Assembly: GCA_029267445.1 (NCBI GenBank)
Contig: JAJUIU010000003.1
Location: 62,001-126,000 of the forward strand
From: Rhodospirillaceae bacterium
GTDB taxonomy: Bacteria; Pseudomonadota; Alphaproteobacteria; Azospirillales; Azospirillaceae
Length of the DNA stretch: 64,000 nt
Reading direction: 5' to 3'
The position numbers were made by a program, and so were the translations under genes. Numbering within the stretch: position 1 is the first letter of the stretch; every line of letters starts with the position of its first letter. The notes beneath the pieces were generated by a model that had not been told where the DNA came from, searched no databases, and worked only from the letters and a program-made list of their open reading frames with translations. Of the stretch, positions 7,847 through 40,164 are shown in pieces.

Positions 7847-7869
7847 GAACGGTCTCCGGGCGGGGTGGT

Positions 7870-8769: not shown

Positions 8770-8790
8770 GTTCCGAAAAGACTTTTGTCG

Positions 8791-10755: not shown

Positions 10756-10864
10756 GTTGGCCTCCGCCCTGAACAGAAAACCGGACGTAAGGCAAGCATG
10801 ACACTTCTTGCGGAAAAATTAATTTAGCAAAAAATGTATGGTTAAGGAATCATTGACGAGTTCT

Positions 10865-15545: not shown

Positions 15546-15855
15546 CGGCCGTCCATCTCCTCACGTCTGTCCGCGCGCTTCCGGGGCGCGGAACGGCGTG
15601 CCGCGACCCTGGGAAAGGGTCGGGCACCGTGCGGACCTGACGGGGAGGCGTTCGCCGATTCCATTGGGATCGGACGGACCGGGCCTGCGCGGGCCAGATA
15701 CTCGAGCGTCACCGCCAAGTCGCTGGATGTCGGTGCGCAAGCGCAACCGGCCTCGGTTGTTTAGAGGAGGATGGGGGAGGGGTCCACACACCCTAGGTCG
15801 TACCCGGACGGTGCCCAAAGGCCGACCACCATCGGCCTAAGCCTCCCCCCAAGCC
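15546..15855. other. Intergenic region upstream of the NAGGN operon
   Basis: About 310 bases without a convincing gene. It holds the leader of asnO with a GAGGAG ribosome site about 12 bases from the start, a 7-bp hairpin at 15604-15622, a small 6-bp hairpin CAACCG/CGGTTG at 15744-15759, and the terminator-like hairpin of the glycosyltransferase gene at 15819-15838. No clear sigma-70 boxes were found. Confidence 0.5.
15819..15838 (-). terminator. Terminator-like hairpin after the GT4 gene
   Basis: AGGCCGA / TCGGCCT, a 7-bp perfect stem with a six-base loop, lies about 18 bases past the stop of the glycosyltransferase gene and is followed on the minus strand by TTTGGG. Short U-tract, so moderate support only. 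Confidence 0.45.
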
Positions 15856-17061
15856 TCAGCCCGGCACGGCGCGCGGCCAGGTCTCAGCCTCCTCGCGGGG
15901 GACCGCGAACGGACCGGCCGAGTCGTCCAGGGCCCGCAACACCGACTCCGCGATCTCGCGGCGGAACCGCTGCGGGTTGAACCGCAAGGCGTTCTCCCGG
16001 CAGACCGCCGGGACGATGCGGTCCCGTTCCGCCTCGAACGCCGTCACGGCGTCGATCAGGCTTTCCACATCCTGACGGTCGAAGAAGGCGCCGGTCGGCC
16101 GATCCGAACCCAGGCCGCGCACGCTTTCCAGCACGCCCCCCTTGCCGAAGGCGATGACGGGCGTTCCGCAAGCCTGCGCCTCGACCGGCAGGATGCCGAA
16201 GTCCTCCTCCGCCGCGAAGACGAAGGCGCGGGCGCGCTGTATGTGCCGGACCAGGACATCCGTCGGCTGGAAGCCCATCAGGTGCACGTTCGGTCCCGCC
16301 TTGGCCCGCACCTTTGGCATCTCGGGGCCTTCGCCGATCACCACCAGGGTCTTGTCGGGCATGCGGGCGAAGGCCTCGACGATAAGGTCGATCTTCTTGT
16401 AGGGCACCATCCGCGACGCGGTGACGTAGAAGTCCTCCTTCTCCGCCGCCAGCTGGAACCGGCCCGTGTCGACCGGCGGGTAGATGACCTCGGCGCTGCG
16501 CCGGTAGGTCTTCCAGATGCGCCGGGCGATGAACTGGCTGTTGGCGATGAAGCTGTCCACGCCGTTTGCGGTGCGGGCGTCCCACATGCGGATGTAATGC
16601 AGGATCTGGCGCGCCATCCAGGCGCGCGGCCCGGAAAGCAGATTCGACTGGCGGAGATAGAAGTGCTGGAGGTCCCAGGCGTAGCGCGCCGGCGAGTGGA
16701 CGTAGCTGACATGCTTCTGATCGGGGCCGGTGATGGCTCCTTTGGCGACAGCGTAGGAACTGGACAGGACCACGTCGTAACCGGACAGGTCGAACTGCTC
16801 CACCGCGACAGGCATGAGCGGCAGGTAGGGGCGGTGGTTCTTCGCCACGCGCGGCATCTTCTGCAGGAACGAGGTGTGCACCGGACGGCCCTGCAGGAAC
16901 CCCGTCTGGTCCGGCGGCAGGAAGTTGATCAGGGTGTAGACGTCCGCCTCGGGGAACAGCAGCAGGAACTGCTCCAGCACCCGCTCGGCACCGGCGTAGG
17001 TGTAAAGCCAGTCGTGGACGACCGCGACCCGAAGGTCCGGCAGCTCTGGAATTGAATTCAT
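15856..17061 (-). CDS. Glycosyltransferase family 4 (WbaZ-like mannosyltransferase type)
   Basis: 401 residues, ATG at 17061. GT-B fold signs: N-terminal LRVAVVHDWLYTYAGAERVL, SYVHSPARYAWDL, YPPVDTGRF, then the donor-binding half with ASRMVPYKKIDLIVEAFARM, VIGEGPEMPKV and FAAEEDFGILPVEAQACGTP, where the two Glu residues form the retaining EX7E-type motif. This is the pattern of WbaZ/WbdB-like transferases that add mannose or related sugars to lipid-linked glycans. It follows the sugar-phosphate transferase gene at 17129-17836 by 67 bases on the same strand, consistent with a two-gene unit making and extending an undecaprenyl-linked sugar. The exact sugar cannot be read from the sequence. Confidence 0.9.
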   Translation of the reverse strand: MNSIPELPDLRVAVVHDWLYTYAGAERVLEQFLLLFPEADVYTLINFLPPDQTGFLQGRPVHTSFLQKMPRVAKNHRPYLPLMPVAVEQFDLSGYDVVLSSSYAVAKGAITGPDQKHVSYVHSPARYAWDLQHFYLRQSNLLSGPRAWMARQILHYIRMWDARTANGVDSFIANSQFIARRIWKTYRRSAEVIYPPVDTGRFQLAAEKEDFYVTASRMVPYKKIDLIVEAFARMPDKTLVVIGEGPEMPKVRAKAGPNVHLMGFQPTDVLVRHIQRARAFVFAAEEDFGILPVEAQACGTPVIAFGKGGVLESVRGLGSDRPTGAFFDRQDVESLIDAVTAFEAERDRIVPAVCRENALRFNPQRFRREIAESVLRALDDSAGPFAVPREEAETWPRAVPG

Positions 17062-17128
17062 GCGCTCGCCCGTTCTGCGGCTGTTTCGGCTGCGACTGTT
17101 GTGGCTGCGACTGTCGTGGTTGTGCGCG

Positions 17129-17836
17129 TCAACTCGTGGAATCGACCTTCAGGACCGCTCCGACGGTCGCGATCAACAGACGCAGATCCGTTCCAACGGA
17201 ACAGCTGTCGGCGTAATGCCGCTCGATCTCGACGCGTTGCGCGAAGGTGGTGCGGTTGCGGCCGCCGACCTGCCACGGGCCTGTAAGGCCGGGCTTGGCG
17301 CGCAGGATGCTGTCGTAGGCCCCACCCATCTTGCCGCGTTCGCCCGGCAGATACGGGCGCGGACCCACGATGCTCATCTCGCCGCGCAGCACGTTGATCA
17401 GCTGCGGCAGCTCATCGAGGCTGGACTTGCGCAGGAAACGTCCGAACGGGGTGACGCGGGGGTCGCGCGTCAGCTTGTGGAAGACGGCGTACTCGGCCCT
17501 GAGTTCCGGCGAGCCGGCCAGGACGGCCTGGAGACGCTCCTCCGCGTCGACGACCATCGTCCGGAACTTCAGCAGGTGGAAACGCTCCCCGCCGGCCCCC
17601 ATCCGCTGTTGGCGGAAGAAGATCGGGCCGGGCGATCCCACGCGGATCGCCAGCGCGATCACCAGCATGGCGGGCAGGAACGCCAGGAGCGCCAGCGCGC
17701 TCACCAGGACGTCGAACAGGCGCTTTCCGGAATAGGTGGCGAGCGCCGGGCCGGGGGAGATCCGGTCTTCCCGCAGTCCCGAACTGTCGAGACCATGCCC
17801 TGCGCCGTCCGAAAGGTCCTCCGGATTGACGAGCAT
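17129..17836 (-). CDS. Initiating sugar-phosphate transferase (WcaJ/ExoY-type polyprenyl-phosphate glycosylphosphotransferase)
   Basis: 235 residues from the ATG at 17836 (GGAG eight bases upstream); an upstream TTG adds four codons but is less likely. After a short polar N-terminus there is one membrane segment (about 40-65, KRLFDVLVSALALLAFLPAM). The catalytic domain follows: RMGAGGERFHLLKFRTMVVD, LTRDPRVTPFGRFLRKSSLD, ELPQLINVLRGEMSIVGPRP and KPGLTGPWQVGGR. These are the signatures of enzymes that move a sugar-1-phosphate from a nucleotide sugar to undecaprenyl phosphate, starting exopolysaccharide or O-antigen repeats. It lacks the extra N-terminal helices of full WcaJ/WbaP proteins, so it is the short ExoY-like form. 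Confidence 0.92.
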   Translation of the reverse strand: MLVNPEDLSDGAGHGLDSSGLREDRISPGPALATYSGKRLFDVLVSALALLAFLPAMLVIALAIRVGSPGPIFFRQQRMGAGGERFHLLKFRTMVVDAEERLQAVLAGSPELRAEYAVFHKLTRDPRVTPFGRFLRKSSLDELPQLINVLRGEMSIVGPRPYLPGERGKMGGAYDSILRAKPGLTGPWQVGGRNRTTFAQRVEIERHYADSCSVGTDLRLLIATVGAVLKVDSTS

Positions 17837-18172
17837 ACGAGGCTCCAAGCTATGTCATTTTTTTCGTGGCCGGCGCCACGAACTTAGCCGGCGCAGACCC
17901 GCTTAATAACGCGGACTGCCGAGAAACGTATAATGATCAAATGGTTTTTTTACGAATTAGCCCAGCCGAAGGTGGGTTCTATATTGATTGTTCTCTCCAT
18001 TGTGGGCCAACAAATACTCTGTTTGTGCTTGACTGCCCTCGGTTTCGATGAAAGAAGGTGGTAGAACGCGGATGCGCCGGCGCGAATGGGGCGTGCGATC
18101 CGCCCGCCGCGCTTTGGCGCCGCCGGGTCCGGGTCCCATGATCCGGTCCGCGATAACCCCGTGGAGCCCGAC
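17837..18172. other. A+T-rich divergent intergenic region
   Basis: 336 bases between the divergent sugar transferase and MaoC genes. 17880-18060 is clearly richer in A+T than anything around it. An 8-bp hairpin TTCGTGGC/GCCACGAA (17863-17882) lies in the leader of the sugar transferase mRNA. A TATAAT hexamer occurs at 17929-17934 and a TTGACT near 18029, but neither has a well-placed partner box. A 61-codon open frame here lacks a ribosome site and was not called. Confidence 0.45.
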
Positions 18173-23632: not shown

Positions 23633-24571
23633 CTATGGACTGGCAGGTCGCCCAAGCCGCCGGGTGGCCCGGATTTCCATGATCGTGGCGGCCAGCCCCT
23701 GGTCCGGCGCGGTGCTCGCCCGCCATCCGAGCAACCGATCGGCCGGATCGGTGATGGCGGCCTTCTCGATCTCCATTGGCCGGTCCTGCAACGCGCCGAA
23801 CCGCAGAAGATCGGCTCCACCGGTCAGCTCCGCGGCGATCGACAGGAAGTCGCGGATGGACAGCAGCGCGCCGCTGCCGATGTCGATGGGAACGGTCCCG
23901 GCTGGCGGCGCTTCCGCCGCGCGGACGAACGCGTCCACGACATCGTCCAGGAACACCCAATCCACCAGGCGGTGCCCGCTCGACAGGGGGATCGGGCGTC
24001 CTTCGATCAGGCCTTCCAAAACGCTGGGCACCAGTTTGAAGGGTTTCTGGCCCGGCCCGTATGTCATGAAGGGCCGCAGGATGGTGACCGGAAGGTCGTA
24101 CAGCGCCGCCATCATCCGGGCATAGGTGGCCCCCGCCCATTTCGCCGCCGCATAGGGTGATGACGGGACGGCGTCGCCGGCGTCGCCCACCGGCTCCTCC
24201 AGCGACCCGGTCGTGATCAGCAGGCCGCTTCGATGCCGACAGGCGGCCAGCATGATGTTCACGGCCGCGATCAGGTCGTTCCGCAGGCTGTCGGGGATCA
24301 GCTCGATCTCCCGGCCGCCCCGGCTGTCACTGGTAAGGTTGTAGACCAGCCGGGGCCGCACGGCTTCGAACAGCGCGTCGACCTGTCCGGCATCGGACGC
24401 GTCGCAGCGCGCCCACATGACGCCATCCTGGTCCCGGCCCGGCCCGGCGCGACGGGAGACGGCGTGGACGCGCGCCCCCGATTGGGCGAGGCGGCGCACC
24501 AGCGGGCGCCCAAGGAAGCCGCTGGCGCCGAAGACGAGGGCGGAGGTGTCGCGGAACGTGTCGGTCGGCAT
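23633..24571 (-). CDS. NAD-dependent epimerase/dehydratase (extended SDR)
   Basis: 312 residues from the ATG at 24571 with GAGG five bases upstream. Rossmann motif GASGFLGRP at the N-terminus, catalytic YAAAK tetrad motif in mid-protein (SSPYAAAKWAG), preceded by TTGSLEEPV (the Thr/Ser region), and LRPFMTYGPGQ and VDWVFLDDVVDA as in sugar-nucleotide epimerases. Likely acts on an NDP-sugar; the product cannot be told. It is the last gene, 117 bases after the SGNH gene, of the same-strand array 30707 to 23633. Confidence 0.88.
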   Translation of the reverse strand: MPTDTFRDTSALVFGASGFLGRPLVRRLAQSGARVHAVSRRAGPGRDQDGVMWARCDASDAGQVDALFEAVRPRLVYNLTSDSRGGREIELIPDSLRNDLIAAVNIMLAACRHRSGLLITTGSLEEPVGDAGDAVPSSPYAAAKWAGATYARMMAALYDLPVTILRPFMTYGPGQKPFKLVPSVLEGLIEGRPIPLSSGHRLVDWVFLDDVVDAFVRAAEAPPAGTVPIDIGSGALLSIRDFLSIAAELTGGADLLRFGALQDRPMEIEKAAITDPADRLLGWRASTAPDQGLAATIMEIRATRRLGRPASP

Positions 24572-24688: not shown

Positions 24689-25702
24689 TCAGCGGATGGT
24701 TGTCGCCGGCTCCGTCCGGGGTGCCTCGGCCCGGATGGCCGTCGCCCCGGTCCCGTCGCCGTCGCCGGCCAGCACCGGCGCGATCCGGGCCGAGAAGCGT
24801 TGGACCGCGGTCCACTGCATATGGAACGCGTCCCAGAAATCGGCCGCCCGATAGGCCGGATCGGCGTGCATGTCGATCACCGGAACACCCAGGGGTTCCA
24901 CCCGCTCGCGGACCGTCGCGATGATCGTCTGCAACCGGTGCCGACCGCGCGGATAGTGCCGCCAGTAGTCCGGGTGGGTCGGCGGGAAGACGATGACGAA
25001 CCGCCGGCCCCCCGCGCGGATCTCCTCCGCCAGCGTGACGAGCTGATCAACGCAGTTCGGGTCCAGATCGATACGGCCATAGCGCAGACCGTCCTGCATC
25101 TCCGTCGGCACCTGCATCGGACCCGATCCATACTCGTCCTGCCACAGATCGCCGATCAGCGGGCGCCGGCGATCGGGCAGGTCGAGTCCGGTGCGTACGT
25201 AGCGTACGGGCGCGAAATAGCGCAGGTACAGCGGCAGCGGGTCGACTTGATCGAAGGCGTACGCCGTCGCATCCTCCGGGTCCATCAGTTCGGCCGGTCG
25301 CCGCAGGCAGTCGTCGAAATCGGGCAGGCCGACGAAGGTCGCGATCGTGCCGATCCCGGGGAACCGATCCAGGTAGAAATGGATCATGGCCCGCGTCTGA
25401 TGGGTCTTCAGAAGGCCCGTCCCGCCGTTCAGCACGGTCAGGTCACGTCCCCCCTCCGCCACCAGCGCGTCCCCGTCCAGATGCCTCCACGTGATGGAGG
25501 ACCCCACCGTCAGCACGTCCGGCGGCCCGTCATCGTACCGTTCGCGCAGATAGCGCAGCTTCTCGTCCAAGGGCTCCAGGCTCGTGATGGCCGGCGCCGG
25601 CAGGTGCTCCGGCCAGAACCGGACCACCGCCTGATAACCCCCCAGCAGCGTCAGCGGGGTGGCGAGGAGGCCGAGAATCATGCCGATGACGTAACGCCGC
25701 AC
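24689..25702 (-). CDS. SGNH/DltD-like protein paired with MBOAT acyltransferase
   Basis: 337 residues, start at 25702, ten bases after the MBOAT stop. One N-terminal membrane anchor (about 5-28) puts the rest in the periplasm. SGNH-hydrolase signs: LTVGSSITWR with Ser68/Ser69 as block I, NGGTG, and DAFH (Asp291, His294) as block V. No high overall similarity to a named enzyme is evident. In AlgX/AlgJ, PatB or DltD-type systems such proteins complete transfer of an acyl group from the MBOAT partner onto a polysaccharide. That partnership is inferred from gene order. Confidence 0.75.
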   Translation of the reverse strand: MRRYVIGMILGLLATPLTLLGGYQAVVRFWPEHLPAPAITSLEPLDEKLRYLRERYDDGPPDVLTVGSSITWRHLDGDALVAEGGRDLTVLNGGTGLLKTHQTRAMIHFYLDRFPGIGTIATFVGLPDFDDCLRRPAELMDPEDATAYAFDQVDPLPLYLRYFAPVRYVRTGLDLPDRRRPLIGDLWQDEYGSGPMQVPTEMQDGLRYGRIDLDPNCVDQLVTLAEEIRAGGRRFVIVFPPTHPDYWRHYPRGRHRLQTIIATVRERVEPLGVPVIDMHADPAYRAADFWDAFHMQWTAVQRFSARIAPVLAGDGDGTGATAIRAEAPRTEPATTIR

Positions 25703-25711
25703 GAGCCCTCC

Positions 25712-27325
25712 TCAGAAGGTGAAGTAAAGGAATTCGGTCGGGGCCGCCGAGAAGGCCTGCAGCAGCGTCAGGCACAGCAGCACGCCCATGGCGACGCCCT
25801 GCGTCATGGTCGGCCGCCAGGCGAGCTTCGGGACCAGCCCGGCCGGACGGTCGGGGCGGCTGGCGAACTCGGCGCAGCCGGCCAGCCACTGCTGCGTGTT
25901 CGGCAGCAGCCAGACGATGGCGAGGCCGGCCGCCACCCGCCAGACATCCTCGGTCATCAGCCGGTTCATCGCCTTGCGCAGGATGACGTCCCAGAAGTTC
26001 GGCGGCGGTCCGGCGGCGGCGACCGTCGGCGGTGGCGGCATGGCGGCCAGCGCTTCGGCCCCGCCCTGTCCGATAAGGCCCTGAAGGACCAGGATCGCCT
26101 GGGTCAGGCTGGTCGATTTGAAGAAGATGAAGCTCAAGGTCACCAGCCCGAAGGTCAGCAGCACGCCCGCCGGGTGCGCGGTCCAGGCGATCCAGGCGGG
26201 CAGCGCCCGTCGCGGCGCGAGATGCCGCCAGGCATGGTTCACCACCAGCATGATCCCGTGGAAGGCGCCGAAGATCAGGAACTGCCAGCCCGCCCCGTGC
26301 CAGACGCCGGCCAGCACCATGGTGATCATGGTGGGCGTGGCTAGCAGCATGATGAAGGGCACGAAGGCCGGCGCGCTCTTCTTCAGCAGCGGCTTTCCGG
26401 CGGCCATACGCCGCTTGGTCAGCGCCATCAGCACGGGGTTGTAGAGGTACGCCGTCAGGAACCGGGTCAGGGTGATGTGCCAGCGGCTCCAGAATTCGAT
26501 GATGCTGGCGGCCTTGTAGGGTGAGGCGAAGTTGATCGGCAGGCGGATGCCGAACATGAGCGCCAGCCCGATCGCCATGTCCGAATATCCTGAGAAGTCG
26601 AAATAGAGCTGGAGGGAGAAGGCCGTCACGCCGACCCAGCTGTCGACGAAGGCGGGCGCCACGCCCTGTGCCGCCGGCGCGTACGCCAGGGCCGCCGTCT
26701 CCGACAGCGGGTCGGCGAGATAGACCTTCTTGAACAGCCCGATGGCGAACACCGTCAGCCCGACCGCCAGCGTCCCCAGCCTCGGCCGGTAGATCTCCGG
26801 CTTGTCGAACTGCGACAGCACCTCCTTGTGGTGCACGATGGGGCCGGCGATCAGCTGCGGGAAGAACAGGATGAAGACGCAGTAGCGGCCGAAATCCGTC
26901 TCCTCCACCATCCCGTCATGGGCGTCCACCAGGAACGCGATCTGCTGGAACGTGTAGAAGGAGATGGCGAGCGGCAGGATGATCTGCGGCACCGGCAGTC
27001 CCAAGCCCGCCAGCAGGTTCGCCGTCTCCGCCAGGAAGCCCGCGTACTTGAACCAGCCGAGCGCCAGCAGGTTGGCCGCCACACCCAGGGCGAGCAGCCA
27101 GCGGCTGGGCTTGCGGATCAGCGCCGTGCCGACGGCGAAATTGAACAGGACCGAGCCGATGATCAGCGGCAGGAAGCTGATCTTCCACCAGCCGTAGAAG
27201 AAGAGCGACGCGCCGACCAACCACCAGACCGCCATCCGCCGCCGGCCGAGCGAGCCCAGCAGGAAGAAGCCCGCCAGGGTCACCGGCAGGAACGCCAGGA
27301 TGAATTCCGGCGCGTTGAACAGCAT
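25712..27325 (-). CDS. MBOAT-family membrane O-acyltransferase (AlgI-like)
   Basis: 537 residues, ATG at 27325, with about ten or more membrane helices. MBOAT signatures: LPLAISFYTFQQIAFLVDAH, FFPQLIAGPIVHH, FDFSGYSDMAIGLALMFG, FWSRWHITLTRFL and the catalytic-channel histidines in GVWHGAGW (about His343) and GAFHGIMLVVNH (about His356). AlgI-type proteins move an acyl group across the inner membrane for O-acylation of exopolysaccharides. Directly upstream is an acyl carrier protein and downstream an SGNH protein, so the acyl donor may be acyl-ACP rather than acetyl-CoA. Confidence 0.92.
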   Translation of the reverse strand: MLFNAPEFILAFLPVTLAGFFLLGSLGRRRMAVWWLVGASLFFYGWWKISFLPLIIGSVLFNFAVGTALIRKPSRWLLALGVAANLLALGWFKYAGFLAETANLLAGLGLPVPQIILPLAISFYTFQQIAFLVDAHDGMVEETDFGRYCVFILFFPQLIAGPIVHHKEVLSQFDKPEIYRPRLGTLAVGLTVFAIGLFKKVYLADPLSETAALAYAPAAQGVAPAFVDSWVGVTAFSLQLYFDFSGYSDMAIGLALMFGIRLPINFASPYKAASIIEFWSRWHITLTRFLTAYLYNPVLMALTKRRMAAGKPLLKKSAPAFVPFIMLLATPTMITMVLAGVWHGAGWQFLIFGAFHGIMLVVNHAWRHLAPRRALPAWIAWTAHPAGVLLTFGLVTLSFIFFKSTSLTQAILVLQGLIGQGGAEALAAMPPPPTVAAAGPPPNFWDVILRKAMNRLMTEDVWRVAAGLAIVWLLPNTQQWLAGCAEFASRPDRPAGLVPKLAWRPTMTQGVAMGVLLCLTLLQAFSAAPTEFLYFTF

Positions 27326-27357
27326 CGCGTCTTCCCCGCTCCACCCTCAGGTGCCGC

Positions 27358-27606
27358 TCAGGCCGCTTCCTTGCGGTCCTGGATCAGCCTCGCGAAATCG
27401 CCGACGTTGCGCAGCCCTTCGATCTCCGAGGCGCGGAACTTCACGCCGAAGCGCATCTCGGCCGCGACGATGATGTTGATGTGGTTGAAGCTGTCCCATT
27501 CGGGCACGTCGGCGGCCGACATCTCCGGCTTGGCCTCGATGTCGGGGTCGTCGAACACGTCCCGGAAGATGTCCGTCAGCGCTGCGTAGATTTCGCGTTC
27601 CTGCAT
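27358..27606 (-). CDS. Acyl carrier protein
   Basis: 82 residues, ATG at 27606, five bases after the FkbH-like stop. It shows the four-helix ACP pattern with the phosphopantetheine site at Ser39 in EWDSFNHINII (DSF instead of the usual DSL), and acidic helix 2. It is not the housekeeping AcpP: the sequence departs from the canonical DSLD region and it lies in a specialised operon between a HAD-IIIC enzyme and an MBOAT. Likely carries the acyl group passed to the membrane acyltransferase. Confidence 0.9.
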   Translation of the reverse strand: MQEREIYAALTDIFRDVFDDPDIEAKPEMSAADVPEWDSFNHINIIVAAEMRFGVKFRASEIEGLRNVGDFARLIQDRKEAA

Positions 27607-27611
27607 GTCCC

Positions 27612-29513
27612 TCAATCCTCGATGCGGATGGTGACGTGGTCGGCGGCGGGCAGGGGCCCCGGCAGGGCCAGTTCCCACACCTGCTCTTCCGGCGTCTCCG
27701 GCGGTGCGTCGGCGGCGGCGAAGCCGAGACGCGGGTACATGTCGCGGACGAGGCCGTTCTTTGCCGTCGGCCGATAGCGGCCGATCAGGCGGTGTGCCCC
27801 GGCGGCAAGCGCCTTCTCCGCCACGGCGTGCAGCACCGCGTCCTCGACCTTGCGGCCCAGCACGCGGCAACTCATCAGCCAGGTGTCCAGTTCCACGGCG
27901 TCGCCGTCCCGCCGCCCGATCACCACGCTGACCAGCCCGTTGTCGCCGAACCGGTCGGTGACCCGCACGGCGAAGGTCAGCCTGTCCGGATCGGCCATCA
28001 TGGCCTTCACCTCGGCTTCCGTGTGGCGGCGGGTCGTCAGGTTGAACTGGTTCGTCTTGTTGATGAGCTGAGTGACGCGGGCGAGGTCCACGGGCCGGAA
28101 CGGCGCGATCGACACGGTCATGTCCAGGTCGCGCAGGAACCCTTCGAGGTCGGTGGCTCCCGCCTGCAGGCGCCGGCGCTCCGCGTTCGCGGCATACTGG
28201 CCCGCCCGCTTTGCATCGTCGGCGGTGAAGGACACGGCCTCGAACCAACCGCTGTCGGCGAGACAACGCACGTACAGCTCCGGTGCCGTCGGCACCTCCG
28301 GCACGGCCACCATGGGAAGCGTACGGCGGACCAGCTCGCGTTCCGCCGGGTTGTCGTCGAAGAAAACCAGGCTGTCGATTCCCAGGTCCAGGTCGGCCGC
28401 GATGCGTCGCAGGGCGGACGGTTTGTCGTGCCAGCCGGCCTCGAAGGCGGCGATATCCTCGCGCCTCAGCACCATCTCGGGGTGCTCGCGGAACGGGGCT
28501 TCCGCCGTGGCGGGCTCGTTCTTGCTGCTGACCGCCAGCACGATTCCACGCCCTGCAAGCTGCTTGGCGTAACGCTGGAACGCGGCGTAGGCCTCGCCGG
28601 TGCCGCTTCCCTGGCCCAGGACCAGCCCGTCCACACCGTCGTCGCCGACCACACCGCCCCACAGGGTGTTGTCCAGGTCCAGGACCAGCACCTTCTTCGA
28701 CAGGCCGCGCAGGGCGGCCAGGATGCGGGCCACCTGATCGCCGGCCCAGGGCACCGCGGCGGGGCCGATCGCCTGCTTGGCGTGGAACCACAGGGTCGGG
28801 TCCACCAGGCCGCGGGCCCCAAGCTCTCCGGCCGCGGCCCGCAGGTCGAGCGGCAGCACGCCGTCGCGCGCGGCGGCTTCCAGCATCCGCGCGTCAAGCC
28901 GTGCCGCCAGCGCCGCCGGGGACGAAGGCACCAGCCGGTCGAGATGGCCGAACAGGGCCGGCTGGTCCGGCAGGATCGTCTGCTGGATCACGGTGGCGCG
29001 CAGCCTGTCCTGGATCGCCCGCCAGACGGCGGTCAACTCGTCGATCCGGCCCTCGATCGCCAGCTCCGCCTCGCGGGCGGGGGTGTCGGAGGGCAGTTCG
29101 GGGACGATGGCGCCCCCCTCCAGCGACAGCAGCACCACGTCAGGCGCGTAGCCCGCCAGTTCGGAGGACGGGTCCAGCGCCTGCTGCCGCCATTGTCCGT
29201 AGGGCGCCACCCAGACATCGGCCAGCAGGCCGCGCCGCAGCGCGCCCACGCGGATGCCGGGGACGAGCTGGTCCAGCGTGCCGCTGCCCAGCAGGGCGAG
29301 GCGGATGCGCGGCAGGCCGGACGCCTCCATCGCCGTTGCGTGCGTCGCCATGGCGCGGTCGAGCTTGCGTGTCTGCAGGAAGTCCAGCCTCAGCCCCGCC
29401 GCCGCCCGCAGGCTGGCCACGATCTCCGTAGCCGTGGCGTCGGGCGGGGGCCGCACGAGGTCCGCGAACCGGTCCGCCGGGGGAAGCCAATGAAGGGACA
29501 GGTCGATCGTCAT
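27612..29513 (-). CDS. FkbH-like HAD-IIIC family protein (acyl-ACP loading enzyme type)
   Basis: 633 residues from the ATG at 29513, one base after the SDR stop. The N-terminal ~270 residues resemble the SGNH-like domain found in FkbH relatives. The HAD-IIIC core begins at KVLVLDLDNTLWGGVVGDD (Asp279/Asp281), followed by VSSKNEPATA and FFDDNPAEREL. After it comes the family hallmark LINKTNQFNLTTRR and a GNAT-like C-terminal part (WLMSCRVLGRKVEDAVL). FkbH-type enzymes load a glyceryl group from 1,3-bisphosphoglycerate onto an ACP. The adjacent ACP makes that reaction plausible here, though some relatives act on other substrates. Confidence 0.9.
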   Translation of the reverse strand: MTIDLSLHWLPPADRFADLVRPPPDATATEIVASLRAAAGLRLDFLQTRKLDRAMATHATAMEASGLPRIRLALLGSGTLDQLVPGIRVGALRRGLLADVWVAPYGQWRQQALDPSSELAGYAPDVVLLSLEGGAIVPELPSDTPAREAELAIEGRIDELTAVWRAIQDRLRATVIQQTILPDQPALFGHLDRLVPSSPAALAARLDARMLEAAARDGVLPLDLRAAAGELGARGLVDPTLWFHAKQAIGPAAVPWAGDQVARILAALRGLSKKVLVLDLDNTLWGGVVGDDGVDGLVLGQGSGTGEAYAAFQRYAKQLAGRGIVLAVSSKNEPATAEAPFREHPEMVLRREDIAAFEAGWHDKPSALRRIAADLDLGIDSLVFFDDNPAERELVRRTLPMVAVPEVPTAPELYVRCLADSGWFEAVSFTADDAKRAGQYAANAERRRLQAGATDLEGFLRDLDMTVSIAPFRPVDLARVTQLINKTNQFNLTTRRHTEAEVKAMMADPDRLTFAVRVTDRFGDNGLVSVVIGRRDGDAVELDTWLMSCRVLGRKVEDAVLHAVAEKALAAGAHRLIGRYRPTAKNGLVRDMYPRLGFAAADAPPETPEEQVWELALPGPLPAADHVTIRIED

Positions 29514-29514
29514 G

Positions 29515-30285
29515 TCAGGCCGTCTTCCTGCTGTGGTCGTCGCGCCGGTCATCTGGCACCGGGAGGGGCAACTCAACGAGCATCTGCGGTTCGGGCGGGT
29601 CCTCCAGCGCCGCGGCGAGCGGGGCCGCCACCTCCTCCGGTGTCAGGAACCGCCCGGCGGGGCTGGCCGCCCGCGCCTGCTCAAGCGCCAGGGCTGGAAA
29701 GGCGGACAGCATCGGCGTCTCCACATGGCCGGGGCGGATCACGGCCACGCGCAGGCCGGCGCGGCCCAGCTCCGCCACCGCCGCGCGCAGCAGCCCTTCG
29801 AACCCGGCCTTGGCCGCGACATACCCCGCCATGTGGCTGGCGGTCCGCGTCCCGGCGGCGGCGCTGAGGACGGCGACCACGGTTCCGCCGCCCCGCCCCC
29901 GGAAGCAGCGGCGCCAGATTTCGGCCAGCAGGACGTGGTTTCCCACCACCTGCGCCTCGAACTGCGCGCGGAGCTGGTCCGGCGACTGCTTGCCGAAGGC
30001 CAGCACGTCGGGTGCCGGGGCGGCGCAGAGGGCCAGCGCCGTCGGCGGGTGCTCGCCATCGGCAAGCCGCGCCACCGCGTCCCGCAGCCTGTCGGGATCG
30101 CCGAGCGGCAGGTGGATGGGCGAGGCACCGCCGCCCGCCGCCGCGATCGCCGCCGCCACCTCCCGCGCGCGGTCCGCACCGGTGTTGTAGCCGAGATGCG
30201 CGTGCCAGCCGGCCGCCGCCGCCCGCATGGCGAGCGCCCGGCCGATCCCGCTGCCCCCGCCGGTGACGATCAGGGCCTTCGCCAT
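29515..30285 (-). CDS. Short-chain dehydrogenase/reductase
   Basis: 256 residues from the ATG at 30285, sharing one base with the MaoC stop (TGATG). Classical SDR: TGGGSGIGRAL nucleotide motif, and YVAAKAGFEGLL with the Tyr/Lys pair, preceded by a Ser-containing strand (VAVLSAAAGTR), then VIRPGHVETPM. The NNAG motif is replaced by LCAAPAPD, which is unusual. Probably a ketoacyl or hydroxyacyl thioester oxidoreductase working with the preceding MaoC and the downstream ACP; substrate inferred only. Confidence 0.88.
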   Translation of the reverse strand: MAKALIVTGGGSGIGRALAMRAAAAGWHAHLGYNTGADRAREVAAAIAAAGGGASPIHLPLGDPDRLRDAVARLADGEHPPTALALCAAPAPDVLAFGKQSPDQLRAQFEAQVVGNHVLLAEIWRRCFRGRGGGTVVAVLSAAAGTRTASHMAGYVAAKAGFEGLLRAAVAELGRAGLRVAVIRPGHVETPMLSAFPALALEQARAASPAGRFLTPEEVAAPLAAALEDPPEPQMLVELPLPVPDDRRDDHSRKTA

Positions 30286-30707
30286 CACGCCACCCCCCGG
30301 ATGGACATCAGGCTCGCCTGCGCCTCGCCGTTGGCGACCGTGCGGCCTTCGGACTCGATCCGCAGATCGATCAGGTAGAGCCCCGCCTCCTCGTTGGCGT
30401 GGCTGACCCGGCCGGTCAGCACCGCCTCCTGACCGACATGCAACGGGCTTCTGAACTTGAGCGTCAGCGACCGCCAGACGCAGCCATGGCCCGGCAGGCG
30501 CGTCCCCAGCAGCCGCGACACCTGCGCGACCAGCAGGCCGCCATAGACGACCGGCCCCTGGAAACCGCCATCGGCGGCCAGTGCGGCGTCATGGTGAAGG
30601 GGGTTGTCGTCGCCGCTGAGACGGGCGAAGTCCGCCATGTCGCGGTCCGTGACGATGAAGCGGACAACCTCCGTCCGCGTCTCTGCGGATACAGGATTGG
30701 ACTGCAT
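30285..30707 (-). CDS. MaoC-like (R)-hydratase
   Basis: 140 residues, ATG at 30707, without a convincing Shine-Dalgarno site. Hydratase-2 motif FARLSGDDNPLHHDAALA (catalytic Asp and His) followed by VVYGGLLVAQVSRLLG and LTLKFRSPLHVGQEAVL, the hotdog helix and strands of PhaJ/MaoC proteins. First gene of the operon MaoC-SDR-FkbH-ACP-MBOAT-SGNH. With the SDR it could make or interconvert a 3-hydroxyacyl thioester for the acylation pathway. Distinct from the MaoC at 18173. Confidence 0.87.
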   Translation of the reverse strand: MQSNPVSAETRTEVVRFIVTDRDMADFARLSGDDNPLHHDAALAADGGFQGPVVYGGLLVAQVSRLLGTRLPGHGCVWRSLTLKFRSPLHVGQEAVLTGRVSHANEEAGLYLIDLRIESEGRTVANGEAQASLMSIRGVA

Positions 30708-33662: not shown

Positions 33663-34481
33663 TCAGACCGCCCGCAGCAGGGCGCCCGCCTGCTGGAGTT
33701 TTGACTTCGGCGTGTCCCAGATGCGCCAGGGCGGCGAGCCGGACTGCCAGAGATTCTCCAGCACCATCTTGTCTCGCAGGGAATCCATCGGCTGCCAGAA
33801 TCCCCGGTGGAGGAAGGCCTGCAGCTGGCCCGCTTCGACCAGCCGGTCCATGGGCTCGCGCTCCAGCACCGTGTCGTCCCCGTCGATCTGGTCGATCACC
33901 GACGGCTCCATCACGAAGAACCCGCCGTTGATGAAGCCGCCATCCTCCGGTCCCTTCTCGCGGAAGCCGTTGACCCGGTGCTCCGGCGACAGGTGCAGGG
34001 CGCCGAAGCGGCCCGGCTGGAGGACGGCGGTCACCGTCGCCGCCAGCCCGCTCTTGCTGTGGAACTCCAGCAGGGCCGCGATGTCCACGTCGCTGACGCC
34101 GTCGCCGTATGTTAGGCAGAAGGTATCGTCCAGCAGGTGCCGCACCCGCTTCAGCCGGCCGCCGGTCATGGTGGCCTCGCCCGTGTCCACCAGGGTGACG
34201 CGCCAGGGCTCCCGCTGTTCGGGAATGGCGTGAACGGTGTTGCGGGCCAGATCGAAGGTCACCTGTCCGGACAGCGACATGAAATCCCGGAAGTACTTCT
34301 TCAGCATGTCGCCCTTGTAGCCGCAGCAGACCACGAAGTCCGTCAGGCCGTAGTGGGCGTAGATCTTCATGATGTGCCAGATGATCGGGCGCCCGCCGAT
34401 CTCCACCAGCGGCTTCGGCCGCACTTGGCTTTCCTCGCTGATCCGGGTGCCGTAACCGCCGGCGAGAATGACCACCTTCAT
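33663..34481 (-). CDS. rfbF: Glucose-1-phosphate cytidylyltransferase
   Basis: 272 residues from the ATG at 34481 (GGAGG eight bases upstream). The N-terminal nucleotidyltransferase motif [19 protein letters not shown] continues with [20 protein letters not shown], then [24 protein letters not shown] and [10 protein letters not shown], all typical of RfbF. It makes CDP-glucose from glucose-1-phosphate and CTP, the entry to 3,6-dideoxyhexoses and some branched sugars. The open frame extends far upstream through the flippase gene but that is antisense-frame noise. The usual next enzyme, CDP-glucose 4,6-dehydratase, is not adjacent; a different SDR-type enzyme is encoded at 36389. Confidence 0.95.
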
Positions 34482-34519
34482 GCGCTCCTCCGTCTTGGGC
34501 GAAGGCGTCCGCGTATCCC

Positions 34520-36043
34520 TTACGCGGCGTCCTTCAGGGCGGCTTCCTGCCGTCCCCTGTTCAGCGCCAGTCCGGCCAGGGCCCGCCATGTCCGCACGAT
34601 CCGTCGCCCGGTGAGGAACAGGATGACGGCGTAGACGGCGAGACCCGCCCCTGTGGCAAGGCCGCCGCGGACCCACTCGTTCATGTCCGGAGCTGCCCAC
34701 ACGATAACGCCCAGCCAGGCCAGCAGGCCGCTGGTGGAGGCGAAAACGATAGGCAGGCATTCGCGGTAGACCTTGCGGGCGGGGATGCCGGCCTGGCGTT
34801 CCAGCGCCCAGATGTCCAGCGGCGCCGACAGGAGCTGCCGGACCGCGATGCCGAGCGCGGCCGCCTGGATGCCGTAGGGCAGCAGCAGGCCCACCGCCAG
34901 CAGGTTGCCGGCCGCTCCCACGGCGATCAGCGCCATGAACAGGCCGGCCCCGCCGGTGCCCCGGATCACCGCCCCGCAGAAGCTGCCCAGCACAACCGCC
35001 GGGCTGGTGGCGATCACCAGGGCCAGCGCCTGTCCCGACGCCAGCCAGCGGGAGCCGAACAGGGTGGAGACCAGCAGCGGCGCGTTCGCCCCGATGGCGA
35101 GCAGCACCGGGATGCTGAGGGCCAGCGCCGCCGGCATGGCCTCCAGGAAGGCCTGCTTCAAACGCTGCCGGTCGCCCTGGATCTTGGCGAAGGCGACGAA
35201 CGCCACCTGCGCCACGGTGCGCGACAGCAGCGTGATCAGCGTCTCGTACAGCCGCATGGCGAAGGCGTAGAGCCCCAGGATCATCGTCCCGGCCAGGAGG
35301 CCGACCAGGAAGCGGTCGGCATGGCTGTAGGCGAACAGCAGCAGCCGGGCCCCGGCCGTCTTCATCGTGAAGGGCAGCAGGTCGGCCGCGGCGGCGCGGC
35401 TGAACCGAAGCGACGGCCGCCATCCGGACGTGTACCACATGATGGCGATGCTGACCGTCTGCTCGACCACGAGCTGACCCAGCAGCGCCCAGGCTCCGGC
35501 CCCCGCCAGGGCGAGGCCGACGCCGGTCAGGCCGCCGCAGATGACGCCCACCAGCGTGCGCAGGGCCAGCTGCTTGAAGCGGAGGGTGCGCATCAGGATG
35601 CCCTGGTGCACGGCGGCCGATCCCGCCCCCGCGATGACGACGCAGCCGGCCCAGATCAGGTCGGCCAGCCCCGGCGCGTCGTACAGCCGTTCCACCGGAA
35701 CGGCGATGGCGGCCAGCACCGCCGCGACCCCGACCCCGCAGCCGAGGCAGATCCAGAAGGCCGCGTTCAGATGTTCCGGCGACACCTCCTCCCGCTGCAC
35801 CACGGCGTCGGCGAGGCCATCGTTGATCACCGCCTGGGCCAGGGTCACGAAGGCGAGCACCAGGGCGAAGACGCCGAAATCCTCCGGAGTCAGCAACCGG
35901 GACAGGACCGCGATGACGGCCAGTGAGGCGACCTGACGGCCCCACATGCCGGTCGCGGACCAGATGGCGCCCGAGATCGCCGCCAAGCGCAATCGCCGGG
36001 GCGCCGCGTTGATCGCCTCCCCGCGAAGTTGGTCAGTCGTCAT
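34520..36043 (-). CDS. Wzx-like oligosaccharide flippase
   Basis: 507 residues from the ATG at 36043 ([15 protein letters not shown]); the ribosome site is weak, and the longer frame to 36190 lacks a better one. About twelve to fourteen membrane helices. Polysaccharide-transport family signs include a [20 protein letters not shown] start, [19 protein letters not shown], and [20 protein letters not shown]. Proteins of this type move undecaprenyl-linked repeat units across the inner membrane. It lies directly upstream of rfbF on the same strand and beside sugar-modifying genes, so it probably exports the glycan built with CDP-glucose-derived sugars. Confidence 0.9.
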
Positions 36044-36388
36044 TCCGGCGGAAATCCCTTCGACACTGGGCCCGTCGCGCGATGCCGGTCCGCTCGCGCG
36101 TCTGCGCGGCTCGGCCGGTGTGGCGAGCCGGACCCACAACGAACACGTCAGGCGGACCATGGTTGCCTGCCGGACGGGGGAAACGTCCAATTCGATTCAG
36201 GTCTGTTGCCAATCCAGATAGGATTAGCCTGAGATGAAGGATAGTTGATGTCGAATTCGGAGTAGGGAACGCCGCGAGATTACGCCAAATGCCGGCCTGA
36301 AACTGGATCTCTCCCTGGTGTAAGGAACCGGGTGGACGGAGCCGAGTTGCTTCATGGACTCACCCTTTCCGGCTGGAGGACGGCGTTC
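36044..36388. other. Divergent intergenic region of the glycan cluster
   Basis: 345 bases between the flippase (minus) and the epimerase (plus). The part around 36185-36260 is less GC-rich than its surroundings and probably holds both promoters; a small AATCC/GGATT repeat lies near 36211. No gene and no convincing -35/-10 pair seen. Confidence 0.4.
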
Positions 36389-37459
36389 ATGCGCATTTTA
36401 TTGACCGGATCGGACGGATATATTGGGGCCCGGATGGGTCCTTATCTGCTGAGCGCGGGGTACGACGTCCGAGGGGTCGATGCCGGATACTACCGTGCCG
36501 GCTGGCTCTACAATGATGCGGAGCGCCGACCCGAGACCGTGACCCGCGACATCCGGGACCTCCAGCTCGAGGATTTCCAGGGCATCGACGCCGTGGTCCA
36601 TCTGGCGGAGCTGTCCAACGATCCGCTCGGCGCCCACGATCGCGAGAACACCTACGACATAAACTTCAAGGGTACCGTGAGGCTGGCCCTGCTGGCGAAG
36701 AAGGCGGGCGTGAAGCGGTTCGTCTACGCCTCATCGTGCAGCGTCTATGGCCGGGGCAATGGCGGTGGTGCCCCGCTGGACGAGACCGCACCGGTCGATC
36801 CCCTGACCGCCTACGCCGAATGCAAGGTCCTGTCGGAGCGGAGCCTGCTCGACCTCGCCGACAGCGATTTCACTGTCACCTTCCTGCGCAACGCCACCGC
36901 CTTCGGCGCCTCGCCGCGCATGCGGTTCGACATCGTGCTGAACAATCTCGCTGGGCTGGCCTGGACGCGGCGGGAGATCGCCATGACCAGCGACGGCTCC
37001 CCCTGGCGCCCGCTGGTCCATGTGCTGGACATCTGCAAGGCCTTCGCGCTCACCCTGAAAGCGGATGCGGACCGGGTCCAGGGGCAGGTCTTCAACGTCG
37101 GCGCCAACCATCAGAACTACCGGGTGCGGGACATCGCCAACATCGTCGCGGCCGAGTTCCGGGGTTGCGCCCTGTCGTTCGGCGAGCCGGGGCAGGACAA
37201 CCGCAGCTACCGCGTCGCCTTCGACCGGATCCGCCAGCACCTCGACGGCTTCGAGTGCGACCATTCCGCCGAGTATGGCGCCGCCGAGCTGCGCGCGGTG
37301 TTCGAGCACATCGGCCTGACGGGTGAGCAGTTCAACGCCGCCGCCTTCACCCGGCTGTCGGCGCTGAAGCAGCTCCAGCAGTCCGGCCAGATCGACGAGC
37401 GCTTCTATTTCCGGGATATCGCCCGGCCGCTTCAGCTCCGGCGCACGGCGGCCGCCTGA
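36389..37459 (+). CDS. NAD-dependent epimerase/dehydratase for NDP-sugars
   Basis: 356 residues from the ATG at 36389 (GGAGG about ten bases upstream). Extended SDR: LLTGSDGYIGARM at the N-terminus, VVHLAELSNDPLG, YASSCSVYGRG (catalytic Ser/Thr region) and the Tyr/Lys motif AYAECKVLSER; a LRNATAFGASPRMRFDIVLN stretch and a WRPLVHVLDICKAF strand follow, as in many sugar-nucleotide epimerase/dehydratases. First of a same-strand set with the DUF4910 and C-methyltransferase genes. By position it may act after RfbF on CDP-glucose or on its keto product, but it is not the classical RfbG. Confidence 0.9.
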   Translation: MRILLTGSDGYIGARMGPYLLSAGYDVRGVDAGYYRAGWLYNDAERRPETVTRDIRDLQLEDFQGIDAVVHLAELSNDPLGAHDRENTYDINFKGTVRLALLAKKAGVKRFVYASSCSVYGRGNGGGAPLDETAPVDPLTAYAECKVLSERSLLDLADSDFTVTFLRNATAFGASPRMRFDIVLNNLAGLAWTRREIAMTSDGSPWRPLVHVLDICKAFALTLKADADRVQGQVFNVGANHQNYRVRDIANIVAAEFRGCALSFGEPGQDNRSYRVAFDRIRQHLDGFECDHSAEYGAAELRAVFEHIGLTGEQFNAAAFTRLSALKQLQQSGQIDERFYFRDIARPLQLRRTAAA

Positions 37460-37496
37460 GCCGGCCGCCGCGACGCGCGTTTGGCGAAGGGATCGC

Positions 37497-38837
37497 ATGG
37501 ACAGTCTGCACCAGGACGGGCCGGCACTGACGCCGGCCGCCACGGAACCGTCGCGGATGATGGATGTCGTTCGCGACCTCTACCCGATCTGCCGCAGCAT
37601 CACGGGCGAGGGGCTGCGCGCCACCCTGCGCTACATCGCGGATCGCGTCCCGATGGAGATCGTGGAGGTGCCGTCGGGCACCCCGATCTTCGACTGGACG
37701 GTGCCGGACGAGTGGACCCTCCGCGAGGCCTACATCGCCGACATGGCGGGGAACCGCCTCGTCGATGTCCGCAGGCATAGCCTGCACATCCTGCAGTACA
37801 GCGTGCCGGTCGACCGGGTGGTGCCGCGCGCGGAGCTGGCGAAGCACGTCCATACCCTGCCCGACCAGCCGGACCTGATCCCTTACCGCACGGCCTATTT
37901 CGCCCGCACCTGGGGCTTTTGCCTGAGCCACCGCCAGTGGGAGTCGATGCGGGACGCGGAGTACCGGGTCGTCGTGGACAGCGACATCGCGCCCGGCGCC
38001 GTCTCCTACGGGGAGCTGCTGGTGCGCGGGCGCTCGGAGGCGGAGTATCTGATCTCCGCCCACTCCTGCCATCCCAGCCTCGCCAACGACAACCTGTCCA
38101 GCGCGGCCGTGGGCATCGAGCTCGCCCGCCACCTGCTGGACCTCGCCGAAGCCGGGCTGCTGAACCGCAGCTACCGTTTCCTGTTCGCCCCCGGCATGAT
38201 CGGCGCGCTCACCTGGCTGGCGCGGAACGAGTCGCATCTCGGCCGGGTCCGGGGCGGCCTCACGCTGTCCTGCCTGGGCGACGCCGGCCCGCACCACTTC
38301 AAGCGCACCAAGGCCGGGGGCTCGACGGTGGACAAGGCGGTCGCCATCGCCTTCCGCGACGCCGGCGCGCCGGTGACCATGCTGCCCTTCACGCCCTTTG
38401 GCTATGACGAGCGCCAGTACAACTCGCCCGGCATCAACCTGCCGGTCGGCTGCCTGATGCGCTCGCCGAACGGCACCTTCGCCGAGTACCACACCTCGGC
38501 CGACAATCCGGATTTCCTGTCGGAGGCGGCGTTGCAGGGATCCCTCGACCGGCTGAAGGAGATCGTCGCCATCCTGGACGCCGACGCCCGGTACGTCCGC
38601 ACCGATGGCCGGGGCGAGCCCCAGCTCGGCCGGCGCGGCCTCTACCGGCAGATCAGCGGCCAGGCGGCCGGCGGCGGCTCGCTCCAGGACAGCATGATGT
38701 GGGTGCTCAACCTCGCCGACGGGGACCACAGCCTGATCGACATGGCGGAGCGATCCGGCAAGCCGTTCGCCGAACTGCTGCGGGCCGCCACCCTCGCCCG
38801 CGAGGCCGACCTGATCCGCGCCGCCGCGGACGCATGA
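37497..38837 (+). CDS. DUF4910-type aminopeptidase-like protein
   Basis: 446 residues, ATG at 37497. Signs of the DUF4910/DUF2172 family, related to zinc aminopeptidases: DLYPICRSITGEGLRATLRY at the start, IFDWTVPDEW, a metal-site-like SAHSCHPSLANDNLSSAAVG (His and Asp), GYDERQYNSPGINLPVGCLM and FAEYHTSADNPDFL. A winged-helix-like C-terminal tail follows (HSLIDMAERSGKPFAELL). Members recur in lipopolysaccharide and capsule clusters although no peptide substrate is known there; some role in sugar or amino-sugar modification is suspected. No signal peptide, so cytoplasmic. Confidence 0.85.
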   Translation: MDSLHQDGPALTPAATEPSRMMDVVRDLYPICRSITGEGLRATLRYIADRVPMEIVEVPSGTPIFDWTVPDEWTLREAYIADMAGNRLVDVRRHSLHILQYSVPVDRVVPRAELAKHVHTLPDQPDLIPYRTAYFARTWGFCLSHRQWESMRDAEYRVVVDSDIAPGAVSYGELLVRGRSEAEYLISAHSCHPSLANDNLSSAAVGIELARHLLDLAEAGLLNRSYRFLFAPGMIGALTWLARNESHLGRVRGGLTLSCLGDAGPHHFKRTKAGGSTVDKAVAIAFRDAGAPVTMLPFTPFGYDERQYNSPGINLPVGCLMRSPNGTFAEYHTSADNPDFLSEAALQGSLDRLKEIVAILDADARYVRTDGRGEPQLGRRGLYRQISGQAAGGGSLQDSMMWVLNLADGDHSLIDMAERSGKPFAELLRAATLAREADLIRAAADA

Positions 38838-38889
38838 ACCGGCCCATGAGCGGCCCCGTGACCCAACGACCAATCCCAGGGAGAACCGC

Positions 38890-40164
38890 GTGACCAAGAT
38901 CGTCACCTGCCGGTCCTGCGGCAGCGACCGCCTGACCACCTTCCTCGATCTCGGGCTCCAGCCCATCGCCAACGCCCTGGTCGAGCCGGACCGCGTCGGC
39001 CAGCCGGAGGACCGCTACCCGCTGGAGGTGGCCCACTGCGCCGACTGCGCCCTGGTGCAGGTGACGGAGAGTCTGCCGCCGGAGGTGCTGTTCGGCCGCG
39101 ACTATCCCTACTTCTCCTCCTTCTCCCCGGCCCTGCTGAAGCACAGCCGGGACCATGCCCTGGCCCTGATCGCGGAGCGCGGCCTGGGCCCGGACAGCCT
39201 CGTCGTCGAGGTCGCCAGCAACGACGGCTATCTTCTGAAGAACTTCGTGGAGCGGGGGGTCCCGGTGCTCGGGATCGATCCCGCCGAGGGCCCGGCGCGG
39301 GCGGCCGTGGCGGCCGGTGTGGAGACCTTGAACACCTTCTTCGACCGAGCGCTGGCCGAGCGGCTGGCGGGGGAGGGGCGGCGGGCCGACGTGATCCTGG
39401 CCAACAACGTGGCCGCCCATGTGGACGGCATCAACGCCTTCGTCGCCGGCTTCGCGCCGCTGCTGAAGGATGACGGCATCGTCGAGATCGAGGTCGCCTA
39501 TCTGCTCGACCTGGTCGAGAGCTGCGCCTTCGACACGATCTACCACGAGCACGTCTTCTATCATTCGCTGACGGCGCTCGAGCCCTTGTTCCAGCGCCAC
39601 GGTCTGCACATGAACGATGTTGAGCGGCTGGACATTCATGGCGGCTCGATCCGGGTCCGCTTCTCCAGGCACCCCGGCAAGACCGACCGGCTGCTCGCTC
39701 AGCTGGGGGAGGAGAGCCGCCTCGGCATGGCTGGGATCGGCTTCTACGCAGACTTCGCCGACCGTGTGGCCGCCGTCGGCCGCGACCTGCGCGCCCTGGT
39801 CGGCCGGCTCCGGGCCGAGGGTGCCCGCATCGCCGCTTATGGTGCCGCCGCCAAGGGGGCAACGCTGCTGAATTATGCCGGGCTCACGGCGGCGGAGCTC
39901 GCCTACGTCGTGGACCGCAACACCCACAAGGTCGGCAAGTACATGCCCGGCACGGGGCTGGAGATCCGGCCCGTCGAGGCGCTGCGGGAGGACCGGCCCG
40001 ACTATCTGCTGCTGCTCGCCTGGAACTTCGGGCGGGAGATCATGCGCCAGAACCAGGATTTCGCCGACGCCGGCGGGCGCTTCATCCTGCCCGTGCCGGA
40101 ACCCCGCATCGTCTCCGGCGTGGACGAGGTGCGCGGCGCCAAGATCGGCACGGTGGCGGCCTGA
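38890..40164 (+). CDS. Zinc-binding SAM-dependent sugar C-methyltransferase
   Basis: 424 residues, GTG at 38890 with AGGGAG just upstream. Three parts: an N-terminal zinc-binding domain (CRSCGS at about 6-11 and HCADCALVQV near 50-60, with FLDLGLQPIANAL between), a central Methyltransf_13-type fold (VVEVASNDGYLLKNFVERGV, DVILANNVAAHVDGINAF, EIEVAYLLDLVESCAFDTIY) and a C-terminal Methyltransf_14 domain (IAAYGAAAKGATLLNYAGL). This is the architecture of enzymes that C-methylate 4-keto-deoxysugars in the cytoplasm. The keto sugar could come from the epimerase/dehydratase two genes earlier. Confidence 0.92.
   Translation: MTKIVTCRSCGSDRLTTFLDLGLQPIANALVEPDRVGQPEDRYPLEVAHCADCALVQVTESLPPEVLFGRDYPYFSSFSPALLKHSRDHALALIAERGLGPDSLVVEVASNDGYLLKNFVERGVPVLGIDPAEGPARAAVAAGVETLNTFFDRALAERLAGEGRRADVILANNVAAHVDGINAFVAGFAPLLKDDGIVEIEVAYLLDLVESCAFDTIYHEHVFYHSLTALEPLFQRHGLHMNDVERLDIHGGSIRVRFSRHPGKTDRLLAQLGEESRLGMAGIGFYADFADRVAAVGRDLRALVGRLRAEGARIAAYGAAAKGATLLNYAGLTAAELAYVVDRNTHKVGKYMPGTGLEIRPVEALREDRPDYLLLLAWNFGREIMRQNQDFADAGGRFILPVPEPRIVSGVDEVRGAKIGTVAA

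Follow-up and report, generated by a model that had tools for sequence, protein, structure and literature searches.

The window (the whole stretch of 64,000 nucleotides that was analysed) carries an intact six-gene operon whose products retain their active sites and include an MBOAT and an SGNH fold, and whose parts are found in conserved association in other genomes. This operon probably encodes a carrier-fed acylation across the membrane, Dlt-like in its working, in which an FkbH-like enzyme would act as the loader and a glycan would be esterified by the MBOAT together with the SGNH protein. Genomic evidence for the route is good; the acyl group and the glycan acceptor are inferred.

The six products and their active sites

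The operon occupies positions 30707 to 24689 on the minus strand, in the order MaoC-SDR-FkbH-ACP-MBOAT-SGNH (table 1), with successive intergenic gaps of -4, 1, 5, 32 and 9 bases. The six tightly spaced genes on a single strand reported in the preliminary description thus lie where it had placed them, the largest gap being 32 bases. The coding status of all six genes is consistent with their high third-position GC; domain searches back the MaoC, SDR, FkbH, ACP and MBOAT calls, while the sixth gene (SGNH) was called by fold.

The FkbH-like enzyme, for which the cut-offs are 146.65 bits (TIGR01686, curated) and 27 bits (FkbH_N), is the only copy in a genome of 4.2 Mb rated 100% complete. The aspartates of its DLDNT motif (D280 and D282) and the cysteine of MSCRVLGR are invariant in 13 of 13 relatives. 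FkbH proteins charge carriers with glycerate, the likely source of which is 1,3-bisphosphoglycerate (PMC13122637, PMC4979870), and by analogy the window enzyme is proposed to be the glyceryl loader of the ACP. The latter matches PRK00982 at 37 bits, which is under the cut-off, and Ser39 of its WDS site is invariant in 18 of 18 relatives. Its nearest solved structure is 2lml, a putative ACP (E 6e-28), which we take to be GmACP3 of Geobacter metallireducens, with a proposed role in LPS synthesis.

The MaoC-type protein displays the hydratase motif SGDDNPLH, with Asp33 and His38 invariant in 10/10 relatives, and the solved structures closest to it are those of 3-hydroxyacyl-thioester dehydratase 2 and (R)-specific enoyl-CoA hydratases. 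Tyr155 and Lys159 of the FabG-like SDR are likewise invariant (9/9 relatives). Both proteins, to which the preliminary description had given no specific role, are proposed to act on an ACP-bound acyl group, MaoC by dehydrating it and the SDR as a ketoreductase.

The MBOAT ends in FLYFTF (residues 532-537), which fits the FxYxxF motif that serves as acyl shuttle in MBOAT-SGNH systems, and its His343, Phe532, Tyr534 and Phe537 are invariant in 32/32 relatives. A His and a C-terminal Tyr motif of this kind are those of transmembrane acyl transfer (PMC12148441), in agreement with the earlier proposal that the group is moved across the membrane. DltB is the best match of the MBOAT model (Z 28.6 over 382 residues, against 22.7 for other MBOATs), although, DltB being the only bacterial MBOAT among the solved matches, this best match alone is no proof of DltB-like donor use. 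The protein scores 185.5 bits against the DltB equivalog TIGR04091 and misses its cut-off of 375; the DltB-family score was rejected as a marker of carrier use, since unlinked MBOATs also reach 161-191 bits.

Pfam and NCBIfam searches of the SGNH protein returned no match. Its AlphaFold2 model, built from 17 relatives (pLDDT 89.7), matches SGNH structures with Z up to 14.7 (12.8 for PatB) and has DltD among its best Foldseek matches; the three best PDB matches of the sequence profile, weak and consistent with this, are all DltD (E 0.003, 0.04 and 0.13). With Ser69, Asp291 and His294 invariant in 17/17 relatives, sequence and model make this protein a candidate for the final transferase onto the glycan.

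Table 1. Location of the cassette genes, of neighbouring genes and of comparable features at related loci
Feature	Location	Strand	Remarks
MaoC-type hydratase/dehydratase, 140 aa	window 30285..30707	-	PF01575 48 bits (cut-off 27)
FabG-like SDR, 256 aa	window 29515..30285	-	PF13561/PF00106; under all equivalog cut-offs
FkbH-like HAD-IIIC enzyme, 633 aa	window 27612..29513	-	TIGR01686 300.8 bits; FkbH_N 35 bits; start probable ATG 29513, end 27612
Acyl carrier protein, dedicated, 82 aa	window 27358..27606	-	phosphopantetheine site WDS
MBOAT membrane acyltransferase, 537 aa	window 25712..27325	-	PF03062 84 bits (cut-off 27)
SGNH-fold protein, membrane-anchored, 337 aa	window 24689..25702	-	model fold; N-terminal helix 2-29
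NAD-dependent sugar epimerase/dehydratase	window 23633..24568	-	PF01370 123.5 bits; directly downstream of SGNH gene
RfbF-like nucleotidyltransferase and Wzx-like flippase	window 33663..36190	-	PF00483, PF13440; upstream of cassette
Second epimerase, DUF4910 protein, sugar C-methyltransferase	window 36332-40164		
Sugar-phosphate transferase, glycosyltransferase, asparagine synthase	window 13770-17848		further downstream
MaoC-SDR fusions	L072:16127-17848, L128:11791-13368, L129:4263-5687, L135:11773-13260	+ (all)	
Radical SAM gene	L133:8287-9936, L136:8089-9834, L141:8134-9897	+	between MaoC and FkbH, MBOAT nearby
Methyltransferase	L118:11842-12840	+	between FkbH and MBOAT; similar sphingomonad loci alike
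DltA-like ligase and small carrier	L193:9779-11505, L197:5178-6971	- (both)	beside MBOAT
Carrier-like domain fused to phosphopantetheinyl transferase domain	L194:5203-6051	+	two genes before MBOAT
Sinorhizobium meliloti pSymB cassette	L211 (CP140955.1) 5750-10785		MBOAT, one further gene, ACP, FkbH

Recurrence of the cassette and the MBOAT clade

An FkbH alignment scan of named genomes yielded 80 loci, 56 of which have at least 5 kb of flank on both sides. Among these 56, an ACP was detected within 5 kb of FkbH in 52, an MBOAT in 39 and a match to a narrow SGNH profile in 17. The FkbH-linked combination was found in alpha-, beta- and gammaproteobacteria as well as in other phyla. The exact six-gene order, which the preliminary description had suggested looking for in other genomes, is present in G014 (L147) and in G004 (L148, identical in sequence to L063); this recurrence, together with that of the core FkbH-ACP-MBOAT in dozens more genomes, excludes a chance grouping.

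The order of the genes varies: MBOAT-FkbH-ACP-SGNH in Stutzerimonas, Belnapia and Acetobacter, SGNH-MBOAT-ACP-FkbH in Ensifer, FkbH-ACP-MBOAT in Pandoraea and Paraburkholderia, and ACP-FkbH-methyltransferase-MBOAT in sphingomonads. That the linkage survives such shuffling argues for a working unit. Its commonest form is a core set devoid of MaoC and SDR (MBOAT, FkbH, ACP and SGNH only, in Stutzerimonas, Belnapia and Roseomonas), and on annotated replicons the core set was found on Sinorhizobium meliloti pSymB, on a Rhodobacteraceae plasmid and in Tistrella mobilis. The pSymB cassette lies near capsular polysaccharide (rkp) export genes, and its MBOAT ends in FLYQGF. Two genes were considered as possible SGNH partners. 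In Sinorhizobium meliloti, the gene that separates MBOAT from ACP was not retained as SGNH, and in sphingomonads the gene of approximately 1 kb that separates FkbH from MBOAT was rejected, as it is a methyltransferase; the latter suggests that the group transferred in these bacteria may be O-methylglyceryl.

A quick maximum-likelihood tree was built from 69 MBOATs; some of its branches are long. It places the window MBOAT in a 43-member clade (SH-aLRT 98) where 38 members are FkbH-linked. The five others are L191, L193, L194, L195 and L197. L191 was rejected as an FkbH-free example, because the place of FkbH between MBOAT and ACP is masked by N. L193 and L197 have a small carrier and, instead of FkbH, a ligase of DltA-like type (358 bits in L193, 330 bits in L197), and their MBOAT is sister to the FkbH-linked MBOAT of Pandoraea; these two loci look like a Gram-negative Dlt-like set and hint at an exchange of loader. 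The carrier-like domain of L194 is part of a fusion (table 1), and no carrier was seen near the L195 MBOAT. As loci selected by FkbH bias these counts, the linkage was recounted on MBOATs fetched by MBOAT similarity alone: a carrier or FkbH was found nearby in 8/9 cases inside the clade (window included) versus 2/21 outside it (Fisher p 6e-5, on small counts and with relatives that are not independent). Locus recurrence and the linkage within the MBOAT clade thereby back the earlier claim that ACP, FkbH, MBOAT and SGNH belong together.

The proposed route and the transferred group

In the route that we favour, FkbH would take D-1,3-bisphosphoglycerate and drop the phosphate, leaving a glyceryl group on the ACP thiol, as expected from its family. 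MaoC would dehydrate this glyceryl-ACP, with loss of the 3-hydroxyl, to enolpyruvyl/pyruvyl-ACP, which the SDR would reduce to lactyl-ACP. By means of His343, the MBOAT would then shuttle this group across the membrane, taking it from the ACP arm and delivering it to Tyr534 of FLYFTF, following PatA/DltX chemistry, and the SGNH protein would accept it on Ser69 before esterifying a surface or exported glycan, an acceptor suggested by the neighbouring glycan genes.

That the group is lactyl, made through MaoC and SDR, is plausible but less likely than not; otherwise glyceryl itself or another derivative would be transferred. In support of the lactyl route, MaoC and SDR adjoin FkbH in several phyla, the two are fused into one protein at L072, L128, L129 and L135, loci that also carry FkbH and ACP, and no ketosynthase, as a 3-hydroxybutyryl route would need, was found in the operon or near FkbH and ACP in the 80 related loci. 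The closest parallel to MaoC and SDR is the loading module of bryostatin, in which FkbH, KR and DH domains lead to lactyl. The middle part of the fusions (approx. 130-180 aa) has no domain assignment, and it is as MaoC-SDR fusions that these large 'MaoC' matches were recognized, a hydratase-phosphotransferase being rejected.

Two arrangements count against the lactyl route, since they indicate that the pairing of MaoC with SDR is not universal: the L062 cassette has MaoC and no SDR within 10 kb, and at L133, L136 and L141 MaoC is paired with a radical SAM gene instead. The radical SAM genes of L133 and L141 have a B12-binding match, and that of L136 was assigned by position and sequence start; such loci may constitute a further tailoring variant. 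The lactyl found in the polysaccharide of Pseudomonas stutzeri AS22 was rejected as direct support, because it is reported as a lactyl rhamnose, probably an ether (PMC7026135), and also because Stutzerimonas cassettes contain neither MaoC nor SDR.

The same route could instead transfer the glyceryl group unmodified, MaoC and SDR serving another purpose or a minor product. This would fit the prevalence of the core set without these two genes, the established role of FkbH-type enzymes as glyceryl loaders in pathways to polyketides and peptides (PMC4979870, PMC13122637) and the L-glycerate esters long known on gellan (PMC9104527), for whose transfer no paper naming the genes was found in the literature searched. 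However, MaoC and SDR share one operon with the other four genes, have intact active sites and keep their position beside FkbH across phyla, also when fused, which makes unmodified transfer rather unlikely. Clearly improbable is the construction by MaoC and SDR of an (R)-3-hydroxyacyl group (e.g. 3-hydroxybutyryl) on the ACP for MBOAT and SGNH, with FkbH unrelated or a helper. Indeed, a FabG-like reductase and an R-specific hydratase are a usual pair for 3-hydroxyacyl thioesters, but besides the absence of a ketosynthase noted above (no KAS or FabH-like partner stands beside FkbH and ACP in the 80 loci, and the KAS genes of this genome lie on other contigs than the cassette), FkbH retains its HAD aspartates and cysteine, and core cassettes dispense altogether with MaoC and SDR. 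We give the least credence to a soluble molecule or nucleotide-sugar amide made by FkbH, ACP, MaoC and SDR, with MBOAT-SGNH an acetyl-CoA O-acetyltransferase located downstream by chance: FkbH-ACP pairs without MBOAT do exist (17/56 full-flank loci), as do carrier-free MBOAT-SGNH pairs among relatives (L149 and L150), but the linkage holds through shuffled orders and across the MBOAT tree, the FkbH-less clade members L193 and L197 nevertheless keep a carrier along with a loader of DltA-like type, and the vicinity offers no ketosynthase or other biosynthetic partner.

If the carrier-fed route with FkbH as loader is true, it would be a second one beside the D-alanine (Dlt) pathway and would supply a way to non-acetyl esters on bacterial polysaccharides. 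As to its extent, we regard the case as evenly balanced for a widespread Gram-negative family, in which a three-carbon unit drawn from glycolysis and loaded by FkbH onto a dedicated ACP would be modified by plug-in tailoring genes (MaoC and SDR, methyltransferase or radical SAM, giving lactyl, O-methylglyceryl or other groups) and delivered to surface polysaccharides by carrier-fed MBOATs that form a clade dedicated to this task, together with their SGNH proteins. Such a cassette would be a widespread counter-example, so that the MBOAT donor rule would need to be changed, and it predicts that the type of ester could be altered by exchanging the loading and tailoring genes.

Known systems and the glycan neighbourhood

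PatA is an MBOAT that places the acyl group on a Tyr at its own C-terminus, from which an SGNH protein moves the group to the glycan, and in Dlt a carrier protein feeds the MBOAT with D-alanine (PMC12148441). The preliminary description ascribed acetyl donors to the known MBOAT polysaccharide systems; Dlt contradicts this, as does the dra locus of Bordetella, through which D-alanine is added to an outer-membrane component (PMC4448142). Accordingly, the proper comparison is Dlt with another loading enzyme. The likeness lies in a carrier-fed MBOAT, an FxYxxF acyl-Tyr shuttle and an SGNH-fold end transferase (PMC12148441), as well as in the DltB and DltD matches of the MBOAT model and SGNH profile, respectively. 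The differences concern the loader (FkbH, versus the adenylating ligase DltA), the Tyr motif (on the MBOAT itself, versus on the DltX microprotein) and the host (Gram-negative and without teichoic acid, whereas Dlt D-alanylates teichoic acids). No DltA was detected over the cut-off in this genome (best match 99 bits versus 559.85), nor any match to the DltC carrier (TIGR01688) at E 0.001; given these results and the missed DltB equivalog cut-off, the cassette is not a member of Dlt, though Dlt-like in its proposed working.

PatAB, AlgI/AlgJ/AlgX and WssH-type systems share with the cassette the C-terminal FxYxxF of the MBOAT and a periplasmic SGNH partner, and the window set has the sequence features of MBOAT-SGNH acyltransferases (MBOAT domain, His, FxYxxF, and an SGNH partner with Ser, Asp and His). 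These systems differ in drawing on acetyl-CoA with no carrier protein (PMC12148441), whereas a carrier would replace acyl-CoA as the donor for the window MBOAT. Gram-negative carrier-fed acylation is also common to Bordetella dra and the Burkholderiales loci L193 and L197, whose MBOATs belong to the window clade; the loader of L193/L197 is however DltA-like rather than FkbH, and the effect of dra is known here from PMC4448142 only. Lastly, the tetronate, FK520 and suomilide pathways resemble the cassette in combining an FkbH-type enzyme with an ACP or PCP bearing glycerate (PMC4979870, PMC13122637). In those pathways a ketosynthase or NRPS receives the unit, whereas the window has a membrane acyltransferase instead; the absence of a ketosynthase sets the cassette apart from polyketide-type FkbH pathways. 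In the literature searched, with subscription papers outside it, no glycan system combining FkbH with an MBOAT was described: FkbH occurred with MBOAT only in cyanobacterial peptides, the two enzymes having separate roles, and nothing relevant was found on FkbH with surface polysaccharides.

Homologues of the window RfbF, C-methyltransferase and flippase genes stand beside the cassette of L062, the closest relative, and the glycan genes flanking both cassettes indicate a surface polysaccharide as acceptor. Elsewhere, any of nine window glycan-gene homologues lies within approximately 10 kb in only 10/48 MBOAT-linked loci, and the Stutzerimonas cassette stands alone. The epimerase directly downstream of the SGNH gene is likely to have a role in glycan sugar synthesis, its membership of the operon being uncertain. 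Between the sugar epimerase and the sugar C-methyltransferase further upstream, the window encodes a DUF4910/DUF2172/HTH_47 protein (37497-38837, plus strand) that is likely sugar- or glycan-related. A large TPR protein carrying a family 41 glycosyltransferase domain is encoded at 4340-7846 of the window, on the minus strand.
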